This document shows positions 1,182 to 64,000 of a stretch of 64,000 bases of DNA, one piece after another. Numbering within the stretch: position 1 is the first letter of the stretch; the number at the start of each line of letters is the position of its first letter. The notes under the pieces were generated by a model. That model saw only the letters and a program-made list of their open reading frames with translations, made no database searches and had not been told where the DNA came from. The DNA is from Narthecium ossifragum (taxonomy: Eukaryota; Streptophyta; Magnoliopsida; Dioscoreales; Nartheciaceae). Position numbers and translations under genes: made by a program. The stretch spans positions 14,502,061-14,566,060 of the forward strand of contig OY986967.1 of assembly GCA_963920575.1 (NCBI GenBank), given 5' to 3'.

Positions 1182-1866
1182 GGTGCACCAGCTTGTTAGG
1201 GTTTTGAGAGGGGAAGAAGAGATCGTGGTTTGAGAGAGAGGAGGAGGAGTGGCTGCGAACGTTTTGAGAAGTTAGGGTACGGTCGAACAAGAGAGGTGAA
1301 TGAAGGGTTGATCGGGAGTTATAAGGGGAGATTGGAGAGGAAAAGACAAAAAAGCCCCTACTTAAGTTGTCACACGGTCCGTGGCGGTCGACCGTAAGAA
1401 GTTGGTGGTCGACCGTCGCGAGCATTTTGTGTGAAAAGAAAATCCCACGGTCGATCCGAAGACTTTGGCGATCGACCGTCACACACATTTTGTGTAAAAA
1501 GCCATCGCACGGTCGATCCAACGAAGTTGGCGGTCGACCATGGCACACAATGGGTCTAAAAATGACATCCCACGGTCGATCCGAGGAAGTTGGCGGTCGA
1601 CCGTCCAGTGCGAAGGTACGCACGGTCGACCGTCAAGAACGCTGGATCGACTGTCAGTTCCAGAAAGTGAGTTTTGAAATTTAATTTAAAATCATTTTTA
1701 AATCAAAACATCACAAAACTTTGCATGCACGTGTAACTAAATATTATGAGACAAAAACCACTCATTAATCATGATATTAACTTAATTTACCAAAATTTAG
1801 CATTCAAGTTGAATATGGTATGAAAAGCAGTTAAAGACGTGACCATACCTTTTCCTTTTAGCTCCT
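1182..1866 (-). other. Spacer between pol and the second ORF
   Basis: No coding frame is convincing here. In element orientation the stretch just after the pol stop (1866 down to about 1661) is AT-rich. The middle holds the palindrome array described separately. The part next to the second ORF (1182-1372) is purine/pyrimidine-skewed and could act as that ORF's leader or promoter. Confidence 0.6.
1373..1660. repeat. GGTCGACC-class palindrome array inside the copia body
   Basis: About five units with a period near 63 bp, each starting CACGGTCGA and closing with GGCGGTCGACC or GATCGACCGT, so each unit is an inverted pair around a loop of about 14 bp. The spacers share text (the element-strand complement of ACACATTTTGTGT). 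The same palindrome class fills the LTR of this element (7264-7866), but the spacer text differs. Confidence 0.85.
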
Positions 1867-3612
1867 TTATTTTGGACATCCATTGGACATCCCAAGCTCC
1901 CTTAGTAGATAAAGAATTCTGTCTTCACTCAAGGGTTTTCTTAGAAAATCCGCAATTTGATGTTCGGTGCTAACAAACTCAAGTGCAATATCTCCTTTTT
2001 GTGCATGATCACGAAGGAAATGATGTTTAATTTCTATGTGCTTTGTTCTAGATTGTAGGATGGGATTTTTAAATAAGTTTATGGCACTAGTGTTGTCACA
2101 TCTAATGGGCATTTTACCTACATGTATGTTGTAATCTTCCAATTGCATTTTCATCCAAAGTAATTGTGCACAACAACTACCCGCAATAATGTATTCCGCT
2201 TCAGCGGTGGATAAGGCAACTGAATTTTGCTTCTTGGAGAACCAAGAAACAAGTGCATGACCAAGAAAGTGACATGTACCACATGTGCTTTTTCTATCAA
2301 GTCTACATCCGGCAAAATCCGCATCAGAGTAGCCAATTAGATCAAAAGATGATCTTCTAGGATACCACAAACCATAATTTTGGGTTCCTATTAGAAATCT
2401 AAAGATCCTCTTGACCGCAACTAAATGAGATTCCTTAGGACAAGATTGATATCTAGCACAAAGGCAAACACTAAACATGATGTCCGGTCTACAAGCGGTC
2501 AAATAGAGTAAAGAACCAATCATCCCTCTATAAAAAGTTTGTTCAACGGGTTTCCCATCTTCATCCTTGTCTAATTTTAGTGTTGTACACATGGAGGTTC
2601 TATAAATTTTGGATTTTACAAAATCATATTTCTTGAGTAGGTCTCTAGTGTATTTGGCTTGATTAATAAAGATCCCTACTCGAGTTTGCATGATTTGTAA
2701 ACCAAGAAAATAATTGAGTTCACCCATTAAACTCATCTCAAACTCACTTTGCATACATGTTGCAAATTCTTCACAAAGTTTATCATTTGTAGAACCAAAA
2801 ATAATGTCATCAACATAAATTTGAACCAAGAGCAAATCTTTGCCTTTTGATTTGGTAAACAATGTAGTCTCAATTTTTCCTCTACAAAAGTCATTATCCA
2901 TCAAGAATTTGCTAAGCCTTTCATACCAAGTTCTAGGAGCTTGTTTTAATCCATATAAGGCTTTAGTGAGTTTGAATACATGATCTCTCAATTTATAGTC
3001 TTCAAAACCGGGGGGTTGTTCAACATAGACTTCTTCTTTTAGTAAACCATTCAAGAAGGCACTCTTAACATCCATTTGATATAATTTGAAATCTTTGTAA
3101 GATGCAAAAGCTAGAAGTAGTCTTATTGCCTCAAGTCTAGCTACCGGTGCAAAAGTCTCATCAAAATCAATTCCTTCCTGTTGGTTGAAACCTTTTGCAA
3201 CTAGTCTAGCTTTATTCCTTGTAATTGTTCCCGATTCATCCATTTTATTTCTAAAAACCCATTTAGTACCTATAATGGGATGATCATGAGGTCTAGGTAC
3301 CAAATTCCAAACTTCATTTCTTTTAAATTGATTCAACTCTTCTTGCATTGCTAGGATCCAATGATCATCCTCTAGTGCTTCCTCTATCGTTTTAGGCTCA
3401 ATTTTAGATAGGAAGGCTAGATTTGCACAAGTATTTAATGAAGATCTAGTTTGGATTCCTCTTGATGGTTCACCAATTATCAATTCCTTTGGGTGCAAAG
3501 ATACATACTTCCAATCTTTTGGCAACTCATGATGTTGATCACTAGGTATAATCTCAAGGGATTCCTCAAATCTAACATTCAATTCTTCAACATCATTTTG
3601 GGTTTCATCCAT
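1867..3612 (-). pseudogene. Ty1-copia reverse transcriptase and RNase H
   Basis: The 581-codon open frame is the C-terminal part of copia pol. The RT carries [10 protein letters not shown], then [13 protein letters not shown] with its catalytic Asp, then [16 protein letters not shown], and [10 protein letters not shown] with both catalytic Asp residues. RNase H follows with [16 protein letters not shown] and [11 protein letters not shown], and the frame ends [17 protein letters not shown]. All RT and RNase H catalytic residues I can identify are present, so this is the best-preserved segment of the element. The start is not a real translation start: the frame joins the integrase C-terminal tail by a frameshift near 3612-3620. 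The product would make cDNA from element RNA in cytoplasmic particles. It ends at 1867, followed by the spacer. Confidence 0.9.
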
Positions 3613-61320: not shown

Positions 61321-62794
61321 ACTTCCATGCTTCTTTGATTGTTTTCTTGCTTTCTTGCATGTTTGATTGTTTTGTTTTTATTTTCGGCATATTTGCTTGG
61401 TTCCAATGAGTGTTTTCATGCATCCGGTACGCGAGTTTTGGCCTTTGTATGTTTAGATCTTTGTACGATGTTAGGCCAAGACAATGATGTTTGTACTCTT
61501 GCTTTTATTGGACTAACCCTTGGTTATACTTCATATCTTCTTTGCATTTGGCCAAAGATACCTTCACATGAATGCTTTGAAGCACATCAGGTTATCTCTT
61601 CCCTTTTGCCCTTCATATGTGCTTGAGGACAACCAAATTTAAGTTGGGGGGTACATTTGCATGTTCGATAACCTGTGTACCTTCACTTAATTTGTCAAGT
61701 TACTTGCATTGATGACTATGTGAAATTATTTTTGTCTTAGATGCTTGTCTTCGAGAACCATTGCACGGATTTTCTTGATTTTCATGTCTTATAAAAACTT
61801 GTGAATCATTGGATAAATGACATTTTTCTTTTACTTCAATTCGACTTGGCACATGGTAAGGCTAATTGAGTGGTCCCAATCACCTGTGCACTCGCACTTG
61901 TATGAAGGGTTAAGTGATTTTGAGTAGGGACCTTGATAGATTGAAATTCTGAAGCATATTCATGATCGATTGATATGATTTATAGTTGTGTTAGAAAATT
62001 TTTGTTGACTAGCCTTGATTCGTAGCCTTCTAGGTTCGGGTAATTAAGTCTGTGGGGTGTTTTACACCTAATGCCCTAAAGCCACCTGGCATGGGAGTCA
62101 TTGACCCAACACTCGCTACATGGACCTAGTAGAAAGCTTAAGGGATCAAGGCACTGCACAGTCGCATTAGTTGAATAAAAGCATAATGGTCATTAGTTGT
62201 GATTCGTGGCCTTCTAGGTTCGGGAGATTAAGCCAGAGGGGTGCCTTTACACCTAGTGCCCCAAACCATATGGTTTGGGAGTCACTGGCCTAAATCCTGT
62301 TACATGGACCTAGTAGAAAGCCTAAGGGATCATGACATTGCACAACCACATGCTCTATTCCTCGAAAAAAAAGAAAGAGAGAAAAAAAAATATGATTAGT
62401 GATGAATAAAACATGTCACATGTTCAATTGATTTGAATTGTTAAGGATAATTGATCTTGATTGGCTCCCTACTTAGATGATTACAAGACCCTGATTACTT
62501 GGTTGCTCCTTTCACGACACGGGATTGTTCAATTAGGTCTTAATTGTGTCAAGTGCTTTGAAGTCTTGGAAGTATATCATTTATGTTCTTATTCATTTGC
62601 TTTTTACTTGGCCATGACCTGAGAGATAAAATTCGTGTATGGAAATCTACTTTGAGCATCGGAGTTGAGAATTGCTTGCATATGAATCAATACATTGTAT
62701 TTTGACAAATTAGTGGTTTTGGTTGTTTATTTGTTTGTGTGTTTATTTCTTTTTGGCTTTGCTCGAGGACGAGCAAAGTGTAAGTTGGGGGGTG
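61321..62794 (+). other. 3' untranslated region with diverged tandem repeat and two polypurine modules
   Basis: No coding frame of note. GCTTGAGGACAACCAAATTT and AAGTTGGGGGGT at 61621-61652 are repeated as GCTCGAGGACGAGCAAAGTG and TAAGTTGGGGGGTG at 62762-62794; the second is the PPT next to the 3' LTR. Between them, segments at about 62018-62165 and 62202-62345 are a diverged direct repeat (GCCTTCTAGGTTCGGG, TACATGGACCTAGTAGAAAG). Confidence 0.7.
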
Positions 62795-64000
62795 TGATTA
62801 GACGTGAAAAGTACACACATTAACCTCTTAATTTACCTTTATTAGTCTTCGACCAAGGTATTTCTAATAATCTTCATGGTATTTCAGGTACAAGAGCCCT
62901 CAACAGAAGTTAGATCAACTTTGGAGCGTAAACAAGCCTATTCGAGCACATTTAGGTACATGGGTCAACTTCAAAGATTAAACTGTACCTTCTCAGGAAG
63001 AACCAAATAATGTGCCATATATCATTAGAAAGCTCTGGAAGTCTAGTTTCTGGAAAATTTTACGGTTCATGATTCTGAGTTTCCTAGATGAAGTTATGGC
63101 ATTTTTCGTACCAATGCGCAGTGCTGAATGGCAAAAGAGATAATCTGCAGAAAGGAAGATCGATCTTCTGTGTATAAAAGATCGATCTTTGCACTGTAGC
63201 AGAGAGCAGTAATTCAAAGGATCGATCTTCTCCCTATAGAAGACCGATCTTTGTACTGTAGCAGAGAGCAGTAATTCAAAGGATCGATCTTCTCCCTATA
63301 GAAGATCGATCTTCTGCGGGCGCAGCCAGTTTTACGATATAAAAAGATCGATCTTCACCCCTAGAAGATCGATCGTTCAGTGCCAGTTAAGCAAAATGAA
63401 GGGCCCAAATGTAATTCAAAGGGGAGAAGCTTGAGGGCTATAAATACCAAACTTTGGACTCTTATTGGGGATTCTTCTGGACAAGAAGAGGCTAAGGAAA
63501 GGGGCAATCCCCTTGGGCAAGGAAGGGAGCTCTCATCCAAGAGGCAGGAGATTGATGAAGAAGAGGATCCATCTCTTCTCCATGGCTTCTCCATCGAAGA
63601 TGAGTAGCTAATCTATTTACCTAGTGGAATACCATGATGTTTTAGGTTTTTTTTATAGTTTTCTTTGGATTTTTAGATGTTGTAAACCCTATTGAGACAA
63701 GATTGTATGGATTTATGCTTCATTTATCATCTTTGTAGTTGGATTCTAATGTTGGATGGATGGATTCTTTGGTTTGCATAAATTAGAACCTTGTGCCCAA
63801 TAGGTGTTTGTTGATATTCCCCAATGAGTAGGTTGTGCTAGAGCCATGACCACTTGTGTTGAAGGGAGTCTTGGCTCTAGGTTAGGGACTTGGGTGTGCT
63901 AGAACCACTCCAATCCACATCTAACCTAGCATCTATCCTATCTTTTATAGTGTTTTGGATTCGAGATGCTAGAACCACCTCGATCCATTACCATATTCCA
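62795..64000 (+). mobile_element. 3' LTR of the non-autonomous element, cut by window end
   Basis: It starts TGATTAGACGTGAAAAG after the PPT. It has the upstream module (62975-63125), GATCGATC array (63155-63385) and TATA box (GGCTATAAATACC, 63436), about 50 bp after the array. This copy lacks the Athila insertion and shows the original spacing. A short frame just after the TATA box ending HGFSIEDE is shared with the 5' LTR, but its ATG is not conserved. Confidence 0.9.

Follow-up and report, generated by a model that had tools for sequence, protein, structure and literature searches.

In the Drosophila gypsy retrotransposon, Su(Hw) sites are clustered in the control region, and DREF/BEAF sites (TATCGATA) are CG-centred 8-bp palindromes read by a host protein. 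Plant Sireviruses carry repeated motifs, which are clustered, CpG-rich palindromes in the upper half of the long terminal repeat (LTR), upstream of the TATA box, with a second palindrome cluster standing before the ENV gene (PMC2829016). The sections of this 2010 study that deal with repeated motifs give CGGTCGACCG as the consensus for a Vitis Sirevirus element and term the motif Sirevirus-specific among the Ty1/copia elements compared; there, a common binding factor was not found and an internal promoter was not conclusively identified. In their passages on palindromes, two maize studies describe those of Sirevirus LTRs as small-RNA hot spots (PMC5311732, PMC10760457), and in one of them the maize palindrome also tops the motifs of structured Helitron regions, a precedent for palindrome sharing across element classes (PMC10760457). 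We analysed a 64-kb window of plant DNA crowded with nested LTR retrotransposons (G000:C5:14502061-14566060 of a 379,400,290-bp assembly) and found arrays of a CG-centred palindrome, GRTCGAYC, in one copia and two gypsy lineages. We take the copia element to be of SIRE type, and the gypsy elements to be of Athila and Tekay type.

GRTCGAYC occurs at 116 sites in the window, against a mean of 2.9 and a maximum of 9 in 200 dinucleotide shuffles. The same shuffles gave a mean of 0.99 (maximum 5) for GATCGATC, found 68 times, and of 0.49 (maximum 4) for GGTCGACC, found 17 times. Clusters of at least four GRTCGAYC per 300 bp number 15 in the window and none in the 200 shuffles. Twenty delimited arrays, with bounds drawn by eye, take in 110 of the 116 sites. 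GATCGACC (17) and GGTCGATC (11) are likewise frequent within them, and one-mismatch sites are common there. A first-pass annotation of this DNA had proposed that palindrome arrays are common to unrelated LTR families. This is confirmed on a larger scale than first described, and the genome-wide counts that it suggested, as a way to tell several host lineages from one family, came out in its favour. Its two palindromes are both real but are not separate kinds, being the ends of one series that includes GATCGACC and GGTCGATC. It had overlooked the array at 27588-27818. GATCGATC and GGTCGACC are both absent from 46500-50340 and 34093-36300, a weak control. In a screen for further palindromic 8-mers that occur in clusters, run behind a complexity filter that itself drops GATCGATC, only GGTCGACC clustered repeatedly; five further 8-mers clustered once each, the same as in the reversed control.

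The arrays and the features linked to them are given below, with window coordinates and strand; ORF stands for open reading frame.

1..1181, minus: accessory ORF past the internal array, with one internal stop and running off the window; PF20167
1314..1326, minus: TATA-like box CCTTATAACTCCC, 60 bp past the internal array (pattern written after the sequence had been seen)
1386..1652, minus: internal array of the SIRE (copia) element, past pol and ahead of the accessory ORF; of GGTCGACC type, with pairs spaced by 21 bp
1867..6652, minus: copia gag and pol ORFs, SIRE-type (Retrotran_gag_2, rve, RVT_2)
7174..7182, minus: TATAAGTAG, 87 bp past the SIRE LTR array
7269..7883, minus: SIRE 5' LTR array; 117-bp units, pairs 12 bp apart
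13793..13822, plus: site pair in a Tekay-type LTR (start 13581)
19392..19596, plus: array in the 3' LTR of an Athila-type element; TATA 61 bp downstream
20582..20612, plus: Athila-like LTR fragment with two sites, one of them mismatched; TATA follows at 64 bp
21153..21579, plus: Athila-like LTR with a 12-site array, three of the sites having one mismatch; TATA follows at 64 bp
22796..23009, plus: array in an Athila-type LTR; variant TATA CATAAATAG 60 bp downstream
27588..27818, plus: array in sequence running into a Tekay-type LTR; TATA not found within 200 bp
29409..29523, plus: array in a Tekay-type LTR (start 29140); TATAAGTAG 12 bp downstream
29847..30079, plus: SIRE-type LTR fragment with an array; TATA follows at 84 bp
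30926..31261, plus: Tekay-type LTR with a GGTCGACC-type array; the TATA at 30387 is about 540 bp upstream
33391..33629, minus: array in an Athila-type LTR fragment; same-strand TATA not found nearby
37515..37538, minus: Tekay-type LTR with two imperfect sites; TATAAGTAG 12 bp downstream
38441..38775, plus: Tekay-type LTR (start 37607) with a GGTCGACC-type array; the TATA at 37893 is about 540-550 bp upstream
40877..40974, plus: array in a Tekay-type LTR (start 40595)
43377..43491, plus: array in a Tekay-type LTR (start 43108); TATAAGTAG 12 bp downstream
52433..52593, minus: array in the 3' LTR (start 52803) of a Tekay-type element
56576..56793, plus: array in the 5' LTR of a non-autonomous Athila-related element
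57190..57528, plus: array in an inserted Athila-type LTR; TATA 63 bp downstream
63158..63378, plus: 3' LTR array of the non-autonomous element; TATA follows at 58 bp

The motif is abundant in the genome as a whole. The pair GATCGATC-N14-GATCGATC occurs 33,313 times in the assembly, compared with 3 for the reversed pattern, and GRTCGAYC-N4-GRTCGAYC 10,773 times, compared with 43 for the reversed control. Lengthening the spacer of the GATCGATC pair by five bases, half a helical turn (27-bp spacing), left just 288 occurrences (control 26). We also sampled 200 kb of the assembly in 10-kb stretches, 20 in all, set at round coordinates of 13 contigs. They contained 171 sites, or 8.55 per 10 kb, with none in 6 of the 20. 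Clusters of at least three held 147 of the 171 sites (24 clusters in 12 stretches). Of the 8-mers with 15 or more occurrences, GATCGATC was the most over-represented (154 found, 3.1 expected). All but one of the 24 clusters had, no more than 900 bp away, a match to an Athila-, Tekay- or SIRE-type segment of the window, a proximity found for 42% of random 250-bp segments.

The copia assignment of the SIRE-type element comes from Pfam RVT_2 and a copia gag; its 5' LTR, at about 6717-8000, was placed from a TG start and an iMet-type primer-binding site (PBS) at 6702-6714 with two mismatches. Sirevirus reverse transcriptase (RT) gave 3,871 candidates, of which 75 were scored, and 10 copies were picked by hand from these ranked best matches (10 of 75). 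In all ten an internal array of 8-10 sites follows pol, and the 5' LTR region has sites in all ten, at least nine in nine copies and two in one. TATAAGT was found 87-88 bp past the LTR array in seven copies and not found in three, while TATAACT follows the internal array at 62-63 bp in seven and at 84 bp in one, and was not found in two. The copia arrays share with the Sirevirus repeated motif a number of at least eight in an element, a place in the LTR ahead of TATA, and a further cluster past pol, before what may correspond to the ENV gene (in the window copy, the PF20167 ORF). They also carry its CGG-CCG signature: the 25 exact SIRE sites have C before the core in 84% of cases and G after it in 68%, giving CGGTCGACCG.

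By these features the SIRE arrays appear to fit the repeated motifs as set out in the corresponding sections of PMC2829016, so the earlier statement that no element of this kind had been named does not hold. The SIRE arrays here, as well as the Tekay arrays 30926 and 38441, have the Vitis consensus CGGTCGACCG as their core. Unlike those motifs, GATCGATC arrays lacking the CGG-CCG signature occupy gypsy LTRs in our material, and their hosts are not Sireviruses (they have RVT_1 and a gypsy-type integrase). Helical-turn pairing and an array shared with gypsy are likewise found here and do not figure in the repeated-motif sections of that study. The gypsy arrays stand upstream of TATA in Athila-type elements, while among Tekay-type elements this order was found in three window LTRs (12 bp) and not found for the others. 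The maize Sirevirus palindromes, like the arrays here, are clustered in the LTR control region; they have another sequence (CACCGGAC...GTCCGGTG) and come with small-RNA data, and the palindrome passages of those studies do not mention gypsy LTR arrays.

The array at 1373-1660 had been listed with those of the SIRE LTR and body; it is not in an LTR, lying past the copia pol and 60 bp before a TATA-like box. We considered this segment as the SIRE 3' LTR and rejected it, as it gave only short motif matches to the 5' LTR and an ORF follows. The distance from the internal array to its TATA-like box is about equal to that in Athila-type LTRs. A piece of the accessory ORF (3-983), searched alone, matched PF20167, a putative plant transposon protein (E 2.1e-19); a protein database search with it gave no homologue at E 1e-3. 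Together, the array, the TATA-like box and the PF20167 ORF past pol make 1-1660 a candidate internal promoter; in the 2010 study the matter of an internal promoter was inconclusive in the sections on repeated motifs.

Both gypsy types were assigned from Pfam RVT_1 and gypsy-type integrase ORFs. Further clues to lineage were one Asp-type PBS, the LTR ends and a Chromo match below its cut-off (16.8 against 25.1 bits). From 7,360 candidates for Athila-type integrase, 126 were scored and 12 stretches were picked by hand from the ranked best matches (12 of 126). GATCGATC occurs 7-11 times in 11 of these stretches and once in the twelfth. Past the array, TATAAATA stands at 64 bp in nine and at 65 bp in one, and was not found in two. 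In the 20 sampled stretches an array follows the Athila U3 anchor in six of six cases. All 49 exact Athila-type sites are GATCGATC, and the CGG-CCG signature is absent. One GGTCGACT/CATCGACC pair at 12 bp in an Athila-type array (19453-19472) resembles the SIRE pairs; its match was marginal (24 nt, E 0.006) and to one of six SIRE LTRs.

The non-autonomous element, earlier treated as a separate lineage, has LTR stretches in common with Athila-type LTRs and a tRNA-Asp-type PBS with one mismatch, and for these reasons we do not count it as independent. Its 5' LTR (56213-59588) is interrupted by an Athila-type LTR inserted at 56835-58491.

For the Tekay type, which is represented in the window by an element with RT and integrase ORFs at 52889-55244, integrase searches gave 5,105 candidates; 150 were scored, and twelve 3' LTRs were picked by hand from the ranked best matches (12 of 150). 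Eleven contain 2-10 sites, the first GATCGATC lying at LTR position 168-236. The twelfth (L045) has no GATCGATC and instead carries two copies of the palindrome TGTAGCTACA, spaced by 23 bp and followed by TATATAA, possibly a change of site. In one Tekay subtype the array is 12 bp from TATA in all three window LTRs; for others TATA was not found. Arrays 30926 and 38441 carry GGTCGACC, unlike those of Athila type. We observed at least three arrangements within this one element type between 13793 and 52593, namely TATA at 12 bp, no TATA, and an array downstream of TATA. At 43067-43108, a Tekay-type LTR seems to stop about 41 bp before the next, with polypurine-like sequence between them.

In order to see how the arrays are related, they were compared with their cores masked (272 comparisons among 17 of the 20 arrays, in both orientations, with 60 shuffles each). 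The spacers of the SIRE LTR array matched those of Tekay 38441 (z 16.2) and 30926 (z 8.3) in antiparallel orientation, and the array of the SIRE LTR fragment matched the same two (z 13.6 and 5.8). Overall, SIRE LTR against these two Tekay arrays stood out at z 5.0 to 16.2. In the Tekay-type LTRs the matches lie inside the arrays, and in the SIRE LTR of the window they fall at 7373-7778. Since they were repeated in all six SIRE LTRs compared and were absent from the reversed control, the array is common to both superfamilies. Other cross-lineage pairs share the core and have no clear spacer homology (z at most 4.0, a few just over the best shuffle), and the same core is found in at least six groups of unrelated spacers. 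A single origin of all arrays was rejected on this ground. The remaining pairs would fit convergence, or divergence past recognition, as far as their sequences go. The first-pass annotation had offered exchange or convergence; spacer homology supports exchange for SIRE and Tekay, and the core-only sharing of the other pairs is in line with convergence. Its interpretation as a whole is upheld in part, given the kind already named, the internal array and the Athila-related non-autonomous element.

Neighbouring sites in the window are mostly 12, 21-23, 29-32, 39-42, 48-51 or 59-63 bp apart, with 16-20, 27, 44-46, 53-54 and more than 70 bp less common. The sampled stretches repeat the main classes, with 21-23 bp the most frequent. 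For all pair distances up to 130 bp in the window and stretches (n=487) the best period was 10.25 (R 0.44), with a phase of about zero. A TATA box lies close downstream of 12 of the 20 window arrays; the patterns used in the window were partly composed after its sequence had been viewed, and general TATA patterns were applied to the sampled stretches, the Athila U3 anchors and the 12 Athila-type stretches.

The cores seem to have been maintained. The observed/expected ratio of CpG is 1.45 in arrays, 1.02 with the cores removed and 0.68 outside. Within arrays, the centre of GR....YC is TCGA in 110 cases, TTGA/TCAA in 9 and TTAA in 1, compared with 6, 13 and 5 outside. Between three Athila-type LTRs, identity was 95-96% in cores, 85-89% in flanks and 66-75% in array spacers, and between Tekay arrays 30926 and 38441 it was 90.5% in cores and 82.5% in the rest, with core identity somewhat inflated by the way cores are defined.

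We consider it moderately probable that the arrays are enhancers close to promoters, that a single dimeric host protein binds them, and that they came to be shared through convergence and at least one transfer. The motif, its pairing, its position, its spread over three lineages and the copia-gypsy array homology are observed, and from them we infer the protein, its host origin, cooperativity, activation and any direction of the exchange. The arrays would be cis-regulatory, enhancer-like parts of retrotransposon promoters, built of GRTCGAYC in pairs 12 or 21-23 bp apart; as the spacing is close to whole helical turns, the sites would all face the same way on the DNA. The array would be occupied by a DNA-binding protein of the host that acts as a dimer, probably with two dimers to each pair, and that activates the TATA box close downstream. 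We propose that Sirevirus, Athila-type and Tekay-type elements use the same protein and have therefore converged on its site, and that at least once one lineage would have acquired the array of another. The second Sirevirus array, with its TATA before the accessory ORF, would serve as an internal promoter. Our proposal in its fullest form is more tentative, and we would put it somewhat below an even chance. In it, several LTR lineages share a single host transcription factor as their switch, the helically phased arrays beside their promoters arose by convergence and at least one takeover until GATCGATC led the over-represented 8-mers of the sampled genome, and the Sirevirus module doubles as a promoter for the accessory gene. 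Su(Hw) and DREF/BEAF sites, for all their likeness, belong to other organisms and have other motifs.

Several observations weigh against the enhancer proposal. Pair counts and spacings are not independent, because they are copied along with the elements. The best period shifts from 9.45 to 12.8 between subsets; exact 10.5-bp phasing was dropped for this reason, and the claim is limited to about whole turns. TATA was not found within 200 bp of 8 of the 20 window arrays, among them the commonest Tekay type (13793, 40877 and 52433), and arrays 30926-31261 and 38441-38775 sit about 540 bp downstream of a TATA, not upstream (TATA at 30387 and 37893). Nor were cores spared everywhere. Two other Tekay-type LTR arrays had changes in 3/24 core and 16/120 remaining positions, and the LTR pair of one insertion in 4/64 and 21/557, no difference in either case. 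The latter would be expected if selection acts only on copies that transpose, although this is no proof of it.

The main rival is that the arrays act as hairpins of RNA or single-stranded DNA and that the palindrome is kept for its fold, so that arrays in the 3' U3 of the transcript would feed small-RNA silencing or serve a step of the RNA life cycle. The first-pass annotation had described inverted pairs folding into 8-14-bp stems. Folding was found in seven of eight pair units (z -3.4 to -5.9; the eighth -1.0), with unbroken stem runs of about 6-14 bp rather than the range given. With 30 shuffles of each kind, all 15 arrays tested folded better than the average shuffle, at z -3.0 to -12.6 for base shuffles and at z -1.4 to -6.6 for core-keeping shuffles. 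The mirror symmetry of flanks at positions 1-4 also exceeded that of re-dealt flanks, a value inflated because sites are related within families. The small-RNA hot spots at maize Sirevirus palindromes point the same way, as far as the palindrome passages of those studies go (PMC5311732, PMC10760457). However, any array of palindromes folds, the core-keeping shuffles explain part of the energy, and RNA hairpins need neither whole-turn phasing nor a fixed distance to TATA. We regard this explanation as improbable in place of the enhancer reading, with which it can coexist.

Still less likely is that the arrays bind an element or host protein that removes or blocks methylation, as VANC does in VANDAL transposons. 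In the relevant parts of PMC5735166, VANC targets are, like the arrays here, dense and fast-changing noncoding arrays of one short motif (VANDAL21), and VANC6 motifs are found in an unrelated element too. The CpG richness of our arrays would suit such a role. VANC targets differ, however, in belonging to DNA transposons, in being read by an element-encoded protein and in having a non-palindromic motif in one orientation. A VANC-like gene was not seen here, though no search was aimed at one, and sharing between two superfamilies better suits a host factor.

We give an equally low probability to a history without function, in which one array sequence passed between several LTR families through recombination or template switching, lengthened by slippage and later diverged. 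The true SIRE-Tekay homology, growth by tandem units and the unconserved cores of one insertion's LTR pair all favour such a history. Against it, Athila LTR cores are kept in the face of CpG decay while their spacers have diverged more than the flanks, spacings are preferred, TATA distances are fixed, and most cross-lineage arrays are without spacer homology. Finally, although the 8-mer GATCGATC is the junction left by DpnII proximity ligation (given in the DpnII part of PMC5288721), a Hi-C assembly artefact is contradicted by the clustering of sampled sites near the same LTR families, by the recurrence of site numbers and spacings in separate copies, and by the frequent one-mismatch sites and the variants GGTCGACC, GATCGACC and GGTCGATC, which are no junctions, and can be dismissed.

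Among the matches listed in openly licensed PMC literature, no title or abstract reported such gypsy arrays. Within that literature, the core in two Ty3/gypsy lineages, its genomic load and its helical pairing appear to be new, as does an array shared between copia and gypsy. The control regions of transposon families are expected to diverge, and here unrelated families share one cis code. This makes it testable which host protein reads Sirevirus-type palindromes, and whether the gene behind the second Sirevirus array has a promoter of its own. It also suggests an exchange of a control module between copia and gypsy that could be dated, and a single host handle, one protein and one site, that may act on several families simultaneously.

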